Below are positions 3,894-7,452 of a stretch of DNA of 34,489 nucleotides, piece after piece (position 1 is the stretch's first letter; every line of letters starts with the position of its first letter). A program made the position numbers and the translations under genes. The stretch is from IMG/VR virus record IMGVR_UViG_3300031278_000006, positions 1-34,489 of that record; one strand, 5' to 3'. Under the pieces are notes generated by a model that worked only from the letters and a program-made list of their open reading frames with translations, was not told where the DNA came from and did not search any database. Source of the DNA: a virus.

Positions 3894-3948
3894 TACTAAC
3901 TTTTAAAGTTTTACAAAATCTTGTATTGCGTATATCCGCTTGTTAGGC
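3894..3948 (-). repeat. attC-like site after the 3954-4202 gene
   Basis: Read on the minus strand it starts with GCCTAAC (3948-3942) and ends with GTTAGTA (3900-3894), 55 bases in all. The inner arms are weak (GCGGATATACGC, ACAAGATTTTGT). GCCTAAC/GTTRRRY matches the integron R''/R' consensus. The length is just below the usual range and it may be a degraded terminal site. Confidence 0.55.
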
Positions 3949-3953
3949 ACAAT

Positions 3954-4202
3954 TTATGAAATGGTAATCGGTTCTATAATAACCGTTGCACCATAACTTG
4001 CAAAATCAGTTGCTGTATATGTGCCATCTTTTCGTTCTCTAAGTTCTGTTTCTTTATGAAAGAATCTTGTTTTGATGTAGTTGATTGCAACTGATTTTGC
4101 TTCATCTAAATCAAACTTATAACCTAATTCTTCAAATACCATTTCATCTGGGTCTCTGGTTGTGTCTGCCAGATTTCGTTTTGTGTAAATTCTATATGTC
4201 AT
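3954..4202 (-). CDS. Cassette-borne hypothetical protein
   Basis: 82 residues, beginning MTYRIYTKRNLADTTRDPDE, of mixed alpha/beta character with no recognised motif. Its two ends are near-perfect inverted copies: 3940-3957 against 4204-4221 match at 17 of 18 bases. That makes it the clearest single cassette of the array. Cassette genes of integrons are typically small, promoterless orphans like this one; here the gene shares the phage transcription direction and is probably read through from upstream. Confidence 0.7.
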   Translation of the reverse strand: MTYRIYTKRNLADTTRDPDEMVFEELGYKFDLDEAKSVAINYIKTRFFHKETELRERKDGTYTATDFASYGATVIIEPITIS

Positions 4203-4212
4203 AATAAACTGT

Positions 4213-4334
4213 GCCTAACAATGTGTATAAGCAATAGCTGTTAGGCGTTTTAACTATTGCAGTTGTTTAATATTTAATTTTGTTTTTCTTTGTTTGGTTC
4301 GTGTAGGCTACTGCTCATACACTCAACGTTAGCG
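4213..4334 (-). repeat. attC-like site, 122 bp, complete arms
   Basis: On the minus strand R'' is CGCTAAC (4334-4328) and R' is GTTAGGC (4219-4213). The inner arms GTGTATGAGC and GCTTATACAC pair at nine of ten positions. A further perfect pair, GCAATAG/CTATTGC, lies in the centre. R'' supplies the stop codon of the gene at 4329. Size and layout fall within the range of integron attC sites. Confidence 0.7.
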
Positions 4335-4631
4335 GTCATTGCCGTGAAACATTATCAACTTATCAAGTAAATCGTTTATGAATCTTAAACCGCCTCTTGT
4401 ATGATTGTAAGTAGTGTATCCTGTTTTATGTAGCGAGTCTTTCAAGCCTTTTATTTCTTCAACATCTATCAAAGGCAACGAACCGCTAACATGCGGTAAT
4501 ACGGCATTATTTTTTACTACCCATACCGCAAATTTTTGCATATCATAAAAGTCTAACTCTTCATAATCTGCCGAATCCATTAATGGATATGTTTCCTTTA
4601 TCCATTTTATTAATAAATCATGTCCTGTCAT
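4329..4631 (-). CDS. Cassette-borne hypothetical protein
   Basis: 100 residues, starting MTGHDLLIKWIKETYPLMDS. It appears helical with a central proline/glycine-rich region and no motif I recognise. The stop codon is provided by the CGCTAAC core of the attC-like site that follows. Its 5' flank (GCGGTCGTT at about 4674-4666) resembles the inverse of its 3' end (GCGGTCATT) but lacks the GTTA of a core, so the upstream site is damaged. G+C is 22 of 60 bases at 4381-4440, above neighbouring phage genes. Confidence 0.7.
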   Translation of the reverse strand: MTGHDLLIKWIKETYPLMDSADYEELDFYDMQKFAVWVVKNNAVLPHVSGSLPLIDVEEIKGLKDSLHKTGYTTYNHTRGGLRFINDLLDKLIMFHGNDR

Positions 4632-4663
4632 AATATTAAATTTAGTGTTTCAAATCCGTAAAA

Positions 4664-4695
4664 AATAACGACCGCATACCACCATCCGTTAGCAG
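4664..4695 (-). repeat. Truncated attC-like site
   Basis: On the minus strand it begins CTGCTAACGGATGGTGGTAT (4695-4676). Sixteen bases of this, AACGGATGGTGGTATG, are identical to the left arm of the next site upstream (5225-5210). The right arm and R' core are missing, and the sequence runs straight into the leader of the following gene. A deletion between two cassettes is the simplest reading. Confidence 0.6.
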
Positions 4696-4703
4696 TAATA
4701 TTT

Positions 4704-5111
4704 TTAAACTGCCACCGCACTCAACGTTCTGCCAAAGCATTTCACTTTTTCACCATCTTTAAAATGATTTGCTTTTTCAAGTAATTCATTCATAATGTCG
4801 TTAATGTTGAAATGATGTGAGAAACCCATCTCTATTTTATAGTCGCCATTTCTATCAATATTACAACCCATTGCTTTTTCTACACTTTCCGTAATCAACT
4901 CACGATAAAAATCTTTATTAATTTTTAAATCCTTTACTAAAATATGGGTTGTAAACTTCCTGCTTTGAATACCACACATCGCTACTTCTGATGGGTTTCC
5001 ATTCCCTAATTGAAATTGCCCAAACATAAGCAAATCATTGTTATCACACCAATGGTAATCAGTTGGTGAGTTGTTTCCTTTTTCTCTTGTTTCTGCTACA
5101 AATACTTTCAT
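4704..5111 (-). CDS. Cassette-borne hypothetical protein
   Basis: 135 residues, starting MKVFVAETREKGNNSPTDYH, probably a soluble alpha/beta protein. No domain is recognised. It ends inside a 23-base inverted repeat: 4688-4710 is the near-exact inverse of 5150-5173, differing only around a two- to three-base gap. Both copies carry the GTTAGCAGTA core, so gene and flanks form one cassette-like unit of about 490 bases. Confidence 0.72.
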   Translation of the reverse strand: MKVFVAETREKGNNSPTDYHWCDNNDLLMFGQFQLGNGNPSEVAMCGIQSRKFTTHILVKDLKINKDFYRELITESVEKAMGCNIDRNGDYKIEMGFSHHFNINDIMNELLEKANHFKDGEKVKCFGRTLSAVAV

Positions 5112-5165
5112 TTTATATTTTTATTTGTTATTAAATCCTGCGCTCAAAAAGTTTAAAAATACATA

Positions 5166-5229
5166 CTGCTAACACGTGGTATAGTTCAGTTTCGTTCCTC
5201 AACCGAAACCATACCACCATCCGTTGTAG
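5166..5229 (-). repeat. attC-like site, 64 bp
   Basis: Minus strand: R'' is CTACAAC (5229-5223) and R' is GTTAGCAG (5173-5166). The inner arms are GTGGTAT/ATACCAC, then GTTTCG/CGAAAC around a nine-base loop. One side has a single extra base and the other has six (TGAACT). Unequal unpaired bases between two stems are typical of integron attC sites, where they set strand choice. Confidence 0.75.
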
Positions 5230-5243
5230 GTAATAAAAGCCTA

Positions 5244-5498
5244 CTACTTACGTGCATCAATTTTAGCTTTGAGTTCTTTTTTACGCCTGTCAAAATATGC
5301 TTTTACTTTCGGGTCATTTTTACTTGTCCAGTACCCACAAAAGCTGTTTGTACTAAAATTCTGCAAATGGTGTCCACAAGTGGTTAATTTTTCACCTTTA
5401 TCTGCATTGCTCCATTGGCAATTCATACAGCTTTTACCTTCTGGTTTCATTATGTTGTCAAGCTGTCTAATTTCGTTTTCTTCTTCTGTCCAAATCAT
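5244..5498 (-). CDS. Cassette-borne Cys-rich small protein, possible zinc ribbon
   Basis: 84 residues. A CMNC pair at 24-27, CGHH at about 41-44 and FCGYW at about 53-57 could together bind zinc; such a knuckle often marks a nucleic-acid- or protein-binding module. The C-terminal 25 residues are strongly basic and helical. Ends at 5223-5242 and 5528-5548 are inverted copies carrying GTTGTAGGTA and AAAAGCCT. Function unknown. Confidence 0.7.
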   Translation of the reverse strand: MIWTEEENEIRQLDNIMKPEGKSCMNCQWSNADKGEKLTTCGHHLQNFSTNSFCGYWTSKNDPKVKAYFDRRKKELKAKIDARK

Positions 5499-5541
5499 AT
5501 TTTTAAATTTAGTGGTTATTTGACCGCAGGCTTTTACATAC

Positions 5542-5594
5542 CTACAACACTAAATAAACCACATTAAAACGATGGTTTATTATTTACGTTGTAG
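5542..5594 (-). repeat. attC-like site with perfect 9-bp inner hairpin
   Basis: Outer cores on the minus strand are CTACAAC (5594-5588) and GTTGTAG (5548-5542). The inner stem AATAAACCA/TGGTTTATT (5553-5561 with 5573-5581) is perfect. Its loop at 5562-5572 is identical to the loop of the neighbouring hairpin at 5597-5607. Confidence 0.7.
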
Positions 5595-5616
5595 CACATT
5601 AAAACGATGCTACAAC
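5588..5616 (-). repeat. 9-bp hairpin sharing its loop with the neighbour
   Basis: GTTGTAGCA (5588-5596) pairs perfectly with TGCTACAAC (5608-5616). The 11-base loop CATTAAAACGA, read on the plus strand, is the same as at 5562-5572. It could be the body of a gene-less mini-cassette between two attC-like sites. Confidence 0.75.
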
Positions 5617-5647
5617 ATGGTATATAATCCATGCTTTCGTTTGTAGC
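5609..5647 (-). repeat. attC-like palindrome, 39 bp
   Basis: Plus strand: GCTACAA (5609-5615) pairs with TTGTAGC (5641-5647), and CATGG (5616-5620) pairs with CCATG (5629-5633). Seven unpaired bases lie on one side only. It overlaps the preceding hairpin arm. Confidence 0.6.
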
Positions 5648-5679
5648 TCGTTTCATCGTTTGTGCTAATTTGACCATAA

Positions 5680-6036
5680 TTAAATTTTACTTAGTTTATT
5701 CTCAGGCTGAAAATCATATTTATGTCCAATATTTTCTAATTGATATTCCCATCCATCAGCACCCCACCGCACATTCAAAATTTTAGGGTTGTGTATATAA
5801 CCCCCATTCCATTTCAACTTAAATTCTTCTTCATTACTAAATTTAGGCCATTTGTCTGGTTTTGGAATTTCTGTGAAGTTAAGTTCACCTTTTGCCATCT
5901 CAGGGTTGAAATAATTTTTATTGTATAATTTATCAATTTGTTCTAATGCCCATTTATCATCACGCCCTTCCCGCATTTCAAAATCAAACAAATGAGTTTT
6001 ACCCCAAAAACATCTATGTGTAAGTATCTGTATCAT
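5680..6036 (-). CDS. Orphan hypothetical protein, probable cassette gene
   Basis: 118 residues, starting MIQILTHRCFWGKTHLFDFE. It is rich in Trp and Asn/Lys in the second half (KPDKWPKFSNEEEFKLKWNG). No family is recognised. It sits upstream of the tandem palindromes at 5542-5647, but its own ends do not form a clean matching pair, so membership in the array rests on position and on the related non-coding flanks. Confidence 0.65.
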   Translation of the reverse strand: MIQILTHRCFWGKTHLFDFEMREGRDDKWALEQIDKLYNKNYFNPEMAKGELNFTEIPKPDKWPKFSNEEEFKLKWNGGYIHNPKILNVRWGADGWEYQLENIGHKYDFQPENKLSKI

Positions 6037-6126
6037 AAAATTTAATTATTACTATGTACCTCGTTCGATTGTCCGTAGTTTATTCTGCACGGCTCATATA
6101 CCTGTCCGTTACCAACCATGCAGGAA
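6037..6126 (-). repeat. Spacer with degenerate attC-like or shared cassette leader
   Basis: On the minus strand it starts GGTAACGGACAGGTATATGA and includes CAATCGAACGAG. It is related in layout to the spacer at 6454-6558 (ATAACGATA, GGGTATGTGC, GATAAAACGAG). The only obvious pairing is CCGT/ACGG. It may be a decayed recombination site or a shared leader. Confidence 0.35.
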
Positions 6127-6453
6127 TCAAAGTTCATGAGGGTAGGTAATATCATTCATCATATCTTCTTCACCAAGGCCGTTTTCTACCATAAAGTTTA
6201 GTAGTTTATTATCGGCTTCAAGTTTCTTTATCTTAAGCAGTAAAGCACGGTTGGTAACACTTTGTAAAGGTAATGCTGCGTTCTCGTCCGAACATTGCGC
6301 CAACCCACGCTCTATTGCTGTTAAGCTATTTTGGCTTAAGTTATGTAAGCTTTCACTACCTTTTACTACATCTTTTAAGTCCATATTTTCAAGCATCCAA
6401 TCAATTGTGCCTTTTATGTAAATCAAATCTTCTTTGTCAAATTCTAATGCCAT
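6127..6453 (-). CDS. Orphan hypothetical protein, probable cassette gene
   Basis: 108 residues, starting MALEFDKEDLIYIKGTIDWM, mostly helical with a coiled segment near residues 70-90. No domain is recognised. G+C reaches 28 of 60 bases at 6241-6300, compared with 9 of 60 at 6661-6720 in the phage exonuclease next door, which suggests foreign origin. It is the right-most gene with array-like flanks. Confidence 0.65.
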   Translation of the reverse strand: MALEFDKEDLIYIKGTIDWMLENMDLKDVVKGSESLHNLSQNSLTAIERGLAQCSDENAALPLQSVTNRALLLKIKKLEADNKLLNFMVENGLGEEDMMNDITYPHEL

Positions 6454-6558
6454 CGCTCGGTTATTTAAAGTTTATCACTCGTTTTATCTGTTGTGCAAAT
6501 TTGGTAGGCAGCACATACCCTTACAATTTATCGTTATAAACAAATAAAATTATTTCCA
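6454..6558 (-). repeat. Spacer with degenerate cassette-type flank
   Basis: The plus-strand segment ACTCGTTTTATCTGTTGTGC (6477-6496) with its extension matches GCTCGTTTCATCGTTTGTGC (5646-5665) at 22 of 28 positions. This links the right end of the orphan-gene block to the spacer at 5641-5675. No paired AAC/GTT cores are seen. Confidence 0.4.
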
Positions 6559-7452
6559 TTAATCCCAAATTTTTGCTTTTAATATTCCAAATTCGTTTTT
6601 TGATTCATCACTGTAACCACCATAAAAACCTGTTTTTTTAGCGTCAGCAATTTTCAAAAGTAAATTTTTCAACTGTTTTTCCTTTTTTATAATATCTTTT
6701 TTTGAAAATTCATAAATAGTAACATTGTAAGGAATAACTTTTTCGCATGAAATCCAAAAATAAGCTTCTAATTCATTTATTAAACCAGCTTCTTTGCATC
6801 CCCAAATTTGTAATAATGCCTGAATCCAATATTTTAGTTTATTAACATCATTACAAAATGAGTGAGGCGATCCATCTCTAGTCGTTTTAATATCAAGCAA
6901 AACACTTTTATTAAACTTACTTGCATCAGGTCTGGTTTTTAATTTTAATCCAGTTTCTTTATCAGTCCAAAAAATTGATACTTGTTTCTCAATATTTTTT
7001 AAAAGTTTACTTGATACTGATTCGCTGTTAAAAGATTCAATCATTTGTAATATTGTTTCAAAACTTTCAGTACCGTCTTTTTCAATAATATATTTATCAA
7101 CATTATCTTCATAAAAAAGTTCTTTAGATTCTTTATAGAATTTTGACATCGTTGGAACTTTTAAATCCGGTTTATTTTTTAAAGCTTCATCAATATATTT
7201 CTGAGAATCAAAAACAGCTATTTTGCCACCTGCTTTAAACTGTTCGGGTTCGAGCAAAGCCATTTCAAAAGCGTTCCCAAAATCAAAATGAGAACCTACT
7301 TTTTCAGGGAGTTTGCCATCAATATAATATTTAAATTCTTTTAGTGATTTATCAGCTATTAAAATAGCTGAAGCACTTAAATATTCATTCCATTTATCAG
7401 AATGATATTCATCTATTGACATATTGTCAAAAATTTGCACGTTGTTTTTCAT
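6559..7452 (-). CDS. PD-(D/E)XK exonuclease (DUF3799/RecE-like)
   Basis: 297 residues. It probably resects double-stranded DNA ends to give single strands for the annealing protein encoded just upstream. A nuclease core is visible: FGNAFEMALLEPE at 58-70, RPDA with D176, then LLDIKTT with D187 and K189, and YWIQALLQ at 208-215, the order D...DxK...Q expected for the YqaJ/RecE-like branch of PD-(D/E)XK enzymes. The start codon overlaps the DUF3820 stop (ATGA). Exonuclease activity is inferred from motifs and context. Confidence 0.85.
   Translation of the reverse strand: MKNNVQIFDNMSIDEYHSDKWNEYLSASAILIADKSLKEFKYYIDGKLPEKVGSHFDFGNAFEMALLEPEQFKAGGKIAVFDSQKYIDEALKNKPDLKVPTMSKFYKESKELFYEDNVDKYIIEKDGTESFETILQMIESFNSESVSSKLLKNIEKQVSIFWTDKETGLKLKTRPDASKFNKSVLLDIKTTRDGSPHSFCNDVNKLKYWIQALLQIWGCKEAGLINELEAYFWISCEKVIPYNVTIYEFSKKDIIKKEKQLKNLLLKIADAKKTGFYGGYSDESKNEFGILKAKIWD

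Follow-up and report, generated by a model that had tools for sequence, protein, structure and literature searches.

A row of small genes in a tailed phage, read on the minus strand at 3943-6500 of a contig from IMG/VR, is very probably a cassette array that belongs to an integron-like recombination system found in Bacteroidota phages. The contig (the window hereafter, meaning the whole 34.5-kb stretch of DNA that was analysed) has the array and an attI-like site but no recombinase, and we therefore regard its phage as a non-autonomous member of that system. Comparison of sequences establishes gene-specific cores, sharp unit boundaries, a common terminus, and the gain and loss of cassettes between isolates of the Polaribacter phage Freya.

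Integrons are known as bacterial devices. Earlier phage cases have been read as captured pieces of them; here, it seems that phages operate a version of their own. In the mechanism that we propose, each mobile unit would consist of an attC-like hairpin and the gene downstream of it, with RYYYAA|C at both ends. Units would be gained and lost beside an attI-like site, AAC-N6-ATATACGCA, toward which the 3' ends of the genes point and which, in other phages, adjoins a XerA-like tyrosine recombinase. Movement of the window array may depend on a co-infecting phage or prophage acting in trans, or the array may be a frozen relic; that it can still move is an inference. The window phage is represented by a single contig, and no cassette variation was seen in it. 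With less assurance, we also consider it probable that Bacteroidota phages possess an autonomous integron-like system, in which a XerA-like recombinase and an attI-like site go together with inverted cassettes that retain attC upstream of the gene, whose cargo is exchanged between lineages, partly in trans, and whose incoming cassettes are sometimes fused to an attC-encoded N terminus.

Layout of the window array

All main genes of the window (terminase, portal, protease, primase, and exonuclease) lie on its minus strand, and the array is read on that strand too. In its regular part (3943-5588), GTTxxxxxx stands before each gene and xxxxxxAAC after it, and hairpins with an R''-L''-L'-R' layout separate neighbours. 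The genes at 3954-5498 are enclosed by gene-specific inverted cores (GTTAGGCACA, GTTAGCGGT, GTTAGCAGTA, and GTTGTAGGTA). The array reaches past the originally annotated genes, to a putative attI-like terminus just below 3942 at one end and to a gene-less unit and a further core pair at the other.

The terminus (3918-3944, minus strand) reads, in the sense of that strand, TGCCTAA|C-AAGCGG-ATATACGCAATACA, with the crossover between 3942 and 3943. Next to it, unit 1 (3943-4328) combines an attC-like site of 122 nt (4213-4334) with an 82-aa gene without a family match (3954-4202), and its cores, GTTAGGCACA/TGTGCCTAAC, lie at 4219/3942. This site, composed of R'' CGCTAAC, a 16-bp L''/L' stem, and R' GTTAGGC, gives the top-scoring arm pairing of the array. 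Unit 2 (4329-4688) has an attC of about 203 nt (4690-4488), and its 100-aa gene (4329-4631) starts inside the attC loop and reads in frame through R'. Unit 3 (4689-5223) pairs an attC at 5166-5229 with a 135-aa gene at 4704-5111 that belongs to DUF7715 (PF24831, E=1.7e-11), with cores at 5173/4688. Unit 4 (5224-5588) has an attC at about 5546-5590, an 84-aa gene (5244-5498) with no above-threshold family match, and cores GTTGTAGGTA/TACCTACAAC at 5548/5223. Unit 5 (5589-5639), of 51 bp, is gene-less and is delimited from its letters alone (GCTACAAAC ... GTTGTAGC ... GCTACAAC). Beyond it, the array is older and less regular (5640-6500): a gene at 5680-6036 has no clean core pair, another at 6127-6453 lies within a core pair at 6258/6108, and a 34-nt repeat occurs at 5639-5672 and 6470-6503. 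Also, a 15-nt sequence, CATCGTTTTAATGTG, occurs twice in 5567-5640, as the body of the gene-less unit and in the loop of the neighbouring attC. An Rfam scan of the window returned no family, and Pfam and PHROGs searches of its cassette genes returned nothing above cut-off other than DUF7715.

The excess of inverted cores was assessed by comparing the 2,680-nt window array with 1,000 dinucleotide shuffles. Exact 9-mer GTT..AAC pairs numbered 5, against a mean of 0.38 in the shuffles, none of which reached 5; exact 10-mer pairs numbered 4, against 0.11, and again no shuffle among the 1,000 reached this count. For 8-mers, the excess was weaker (5 versus 1.4, with 13 of 1,000 shuffles as high). 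The three top attC-like arm pairings of the array fall exactly at 4330-4217, 4690-4488, and 5225-5171. Hairpin scores by themselves were just moderately higher than those of shuffles, and so it is the cross-phage comparisons that carry the case. Judged by eye, the stems are paired without a clear bulge, no single extra base is obvious in the L'' arm, and the R''/L'' side has the longer spacer.

These results confirm what the initial annotation observed. The four same-strand genes, the AAC/GTT cores, and the palindromes were found where it had placed them. Its claim that the 3' core of a gene is the inverse of the 5' core of the same gene agrees with both the paired cores and their excess as 9-mers and 10-mers. 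It had also noted that no integrase lies nearby, which can be extended, as no tyrosine recombinase (PF00589) was detected anywhere in the window.

Cassettes in related phages and between isolates

The nearest relatives of the window (G001 and G003), whose capsid proteins are 82-84% and primases 63-66% identical to its own, lack the array between the exonuclease and a small membrane-protein gene. The exonuclease is of another type in the window (6559-7452) than in L030/L032 (DUF3799 versus YqaJ-like). On this comparison, the window array is an insertion.

Pieces of the array recur in other phages. The 122-nt attC matches a site in Cellulophaga phage phi18:3 at 92% identity across 124 bp, and its core is also present, with different genes around it, in three metagenomic phage contigs (L003, L005, and L006). 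The exact core pattern had 0 matches in 84,980 bacterial and archaeal genomes; among plasmids, the 122-nt attC had weak matches only (E >= 0.1), and the attC of contig L037 had none. Relatives of the DUF7715 cassette (4704-5111) occur at 80-89% in eight other viral contigs, none was found in INPHARED by tblastn, and no close relative was found in the same 84,980 genomes, where the search covered exact patterns or close relatives only. A DUF7715 gene in L040 (1962-2360) lies outside any cassette, with a tRNA-like sequence just downstream.

The edges of these shared pieces are sharp. In L033/L034, 90% DNA identity to the window starts at 5172, the first base past the G|TT crossover. L037, L038, and L039 each have in common with the window a block consisting of the upstream attC and the gene, which ends at TAAC; the sequence beyond differs in each. 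The otherwise unrelated contigs L035 and L036 share a two-cassette block of 789 bp at 99.9%, and L036 is missing exactly one attC-plus-gene unit, the one beside the terminus in L035. Since the crossover must, from these boundaries, lie at AA|C, each attC goes with the gene that follows it, and the mobile unit would thus be attC plus downstream gene, the reverse of a classical cassette.

Five Freya isolates (1, 5, 8, 9, and 10) have identical backbones of 42,063 bp, with 4 mismatches in Freya 2 and 1 in Freya 6. What sets all seven apart is whole cassettes, with the cuts exactly at AAC: isolate 1 has none, isolate 2 has U1, isolate 5 has U1 and U2, isolate 8 has U1, U3a, and U3b, isolate 9 has U1, U2, and U3a, and isolate 10 has all of them. 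Isolate 6 has U1 and U2 together with a 472-bp unit at the attI-like site that none of the other six carries. Where junctions were examined, they lie at AAC and have 3-4 nt of identity, which is too little for ordinary homologous recombination. Genome sizes of 44.0-48.9 kb are given for Freya in the isolation paper, with no cause stated in the passages found (PMC8776804). Freya and its sister species Danklef have a 1,169-bp, AAC-bounded unit in common at 99.6%, with different flanks.

Danklef itself has a truncated recombinase gene in 5/5 isolates. Comparison of records L079 and L080 with L081-L083 revealed an AAC-bounded adenine-methylase unit of 781 bp that is present in Danklef 1 and 5 and absent from Danklef 2-4. 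Given this difference despite the truncation, either a recombinase would have acted in trans, so that an adjacent recombinase gene may not be strictly required, or the change may be older than the loss of that gene. A third possibility, an array frozen by the broken recombinase, is ruled out by the same difference.

Some genes start in an attC-like loop and continue in frame through the R' core. Examples are the window genes at 4329-4631 and 6127-6453, phi18:3 gp034 (L002), L003 12494-12734, and genes in L053, L070, and L075. The read-through junctions are often ...V-S... (ALPH|VSGSLP, IHV|VSESTYP, LPN|VSGQLP, and IPV|VSFELP). Insertion would in such a case join the incoming cassette to an N terminus that the attC encodes. 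At L005 about 10550 and 9390 and upstream of 6627 in L052, this N terminus resembles a lipoprotein signal peptide (IKQIAVYSFCTLLVCVSC; AFAYVLLVAVIFCGC), and we posit that attC might supply export signals. DNA methyltransferase-like genes are recurrent in the arrays of L046, L050, L053, L002, and L079, which suggests anti-restriction cargo; that the cargo helps the phage against its hosts is inferred. The architecture is not uniform. In L055 (about 500-2700), it is the other arm of the repeat that holds the genes, in loops of AAC...GTT arms between near-identical 48-bp hairpins (GTTAATTGCAGGC...GCTTGCAATTAAC), and this array, despite its different form, ends in the attI-like motif of the others.

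The terminus, the recombinases, and other readings

Past its last gene, the window reads GTGCCTAAC-AAGCGG-ATATACGCAATA. The array thus ends in AAC-N6-ATATACGCA, which has the same offset in L039, L053, L055, L048, and Leef_1; it is also present in L054, a contig that starts at this TAAC. A search with the terminus pattern from the window and L039 yielded three further viral contigs, 2 with the pattern at an array end and 1 starting there. Leef_1 was found independently, and its array ends in AAC-GCCCCT-ATATACGCA directly before the recombinase gene. ATA lies six bases past AAC in all compared arrays except that of G020, where the terminus motif is in reverse complement and slightly further on. 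In the window, AAC-N6-ATA has no integrase gene beside it, whereas a recombinase adjoins in Leef, Freya, and Ingeline. We read the conserved terminus as a putative attI-like site facing the 3' ends of the genes, although its function is untested. The idea that it is half of a last attC was dropped, since the constant offset in arrays abutting a recombinase makes attI the better reading. The GenBank records of Freya_1 and Freya_2 (L072 and L078) start at or one base from the attI-like AAC, as though the variable array had interrupted the assembly.

G020, the 64-kb phage of L050, encodes a tyrosine recombinase of 273 aa directly past its array. This protein scores 187.9 bits on the XerA model (cut-off 220) and matches the IntI model TIGR02249 only in part, at 142.4 bits (cut-off 265), with profile positions 180-237 unmatched. 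It had no relative but itself in viral contigs; a tblastn search of INPHARED gave the flavophages Freya, Leef, and Ingeline, whose recombinases are 31-35% identical to it and each abut an array at its terminus end. By inspection, the catalytic residues are present in the G020, Leef_1, Freya, and Ingeline proteins. On the IntI model, the phage recombinases reach 92-142 bits, versus 508.6 for an IntI1 control. Being far below the cut-off, they fail as members of the IntI family, but integron-like working does not fail with it. We infer that the adjacent recombinase performs the exchange and, from the hairpins, that its substrate is a folded single strand, as for IntI. Separately, phi18:3 encodes a 428-aa tyrosine recombinase, gp037 (L002 4260-5546), beyond the gene-3' end of its array; it is not close to the XerA-like ones, and a second kind of recombinase may serve such arrays.

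Could the array instead be an attC cluster taken from a bacterial integron by illegitimate recombination and dependent on a host IntI for any movement? We consider this unlikely. Clusters of attC sites are on record in phages, and class 1 IntI1 recombined 5/6 of the phage sites tested, including one of Polaribacter phage P12002L (Qi et al. 2023, PMC9892861). Nevertheless, neither the exact attC core pattern nor a close relative of the DUF7715 cassette turned up in the bacterial and archaeal genomes searched, the units are inverted relative to classical cassettes, and related phages encode a recombinase of their own where the array ends. An ordinary hypervariable region, with terminators between small genes and reshuffling by homologous recombination, is a far weaker candidate: it is general knowledge that small accessory genes of phages are often swapped and that intergenic hairpins can terminate transcription, but it would leave unexplained gene-specific inverted core pairs, Freya junctions that are always at AAC with so little identity, and differences that are in every case whole units. 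Least credible of all is a shufflon- or inverton-like cluster whose genes are flipped by inverted repeats. Inverted repeats do flank the genes, and relatives have a tyrosine recombinase close by; however, the genes in the arrays read here all have one orientation, and what distinguishes the isolates is loss or gain rather than inversion.

The phage-borne integron-like array remains the preferred reading, as the initial annotation had proposed; it is supported by relatives without the array, by a cassette gene that recurs elsewhere with sharp core boundaries, and by whole-unit changes in Freya. Identical genes in all related phages would have refuted it, and relatives without the array and the Freya gains and losses argue against that outcome. 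Two points need amendment: the rarity of phage-borne arrays, taken up below, and the need for a bacterial integron. The annotation spoke of integron cassettes, and a cassette array stands, but a bacterial integron is unnecessary, given that related phages encode their own recombinase beside the array. The layout is integron-like as described but inverted, with each gene preceded, at its 5' end, by its attC.

Freya, a laboratory-tractable phage on Polaribacter, offers cassette turnover between near-identical isolates. Three questions thereby become open to experiment: can a recombinase as short and Xer-like as these use folded attC sites, by what route do phages obtain small genes such as those for anti-restriction, and do bacterial integrons and phages exchange cassettes?

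Comparison with integrons and earlier phage cases

The phage arrays resemble chromosomal and mobile integrons in their GTTRRRY/RYYYAAC cores, attC hairpins, and small genes, and in insertion beside what is here only read as an attI-like site. The window sites have the attC end pattern, RYYYAAC ... GTTRRRY with an L''/L' stem, and precise gain or loss at the core is met in Freya, Danklef, and L035/L036. The window also meets the CALIN criterion (at least 2 attC within a few kb and no integrase), on layout and not on the published attC model. In contrast, no IntI-type integrase (TIGR02249 above 265 bits, with the IntI-specific insert) was found in the window or its relatives, and the phage recombinases are XerA-like proteins of 263-287 aa, with the stretch around 180-237 of the IntI model lacking in that of G020. 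The classical cassette order, gene then attC with the gene 5' end facing attI, is not met either: across arrays, common and variable units alike run attC then gene, with the gene 3' end facing the attI-like site, and N-terminal coding sequence can sit in the attC loop.

The initial annotation held phage-borne arrays to be rare, which is partly outdated. Work by Qi et al. 2023 described 17 attC clusters in phages (PMC9892861). These CALINs are alike in having attC-like sites and small cassette genes in phages, some of them flavobacterial, and the study reports bacterial-type integron components in temperate phages; in the sections read, it describes neither a recombinase of phage type that has its own attI nor inverted polarity, and it does not compare isolates. 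A phage-encoded recombinase-attI-cassette system was not described in the open-licence literature on phage integrons and on these phages, and a report elsewhere may exist. For Freya, Leef, and Ingeline, the isolation paper reads the recombinase as an integrase suggesting temperate life and uses neither the word integron nor the word cassette (PMC8776804).

The phi18:3 array (KC821620, gp032-gp037) has the same 122-nt attC as the window and a tyrosine recombinase, gp037, beyond the gene-3' end; its cassette genes differ from those of the window, and gp037 is a phage-type integrase that matches XerD weakly. In Polaribacter phages Freya and Leef and Cellulophaga phage Ingeline (PMC8776804), the array abuts a recombinase, unlike that of the window phage, and in Leef, ATATACGCA has the offset seen in the window.
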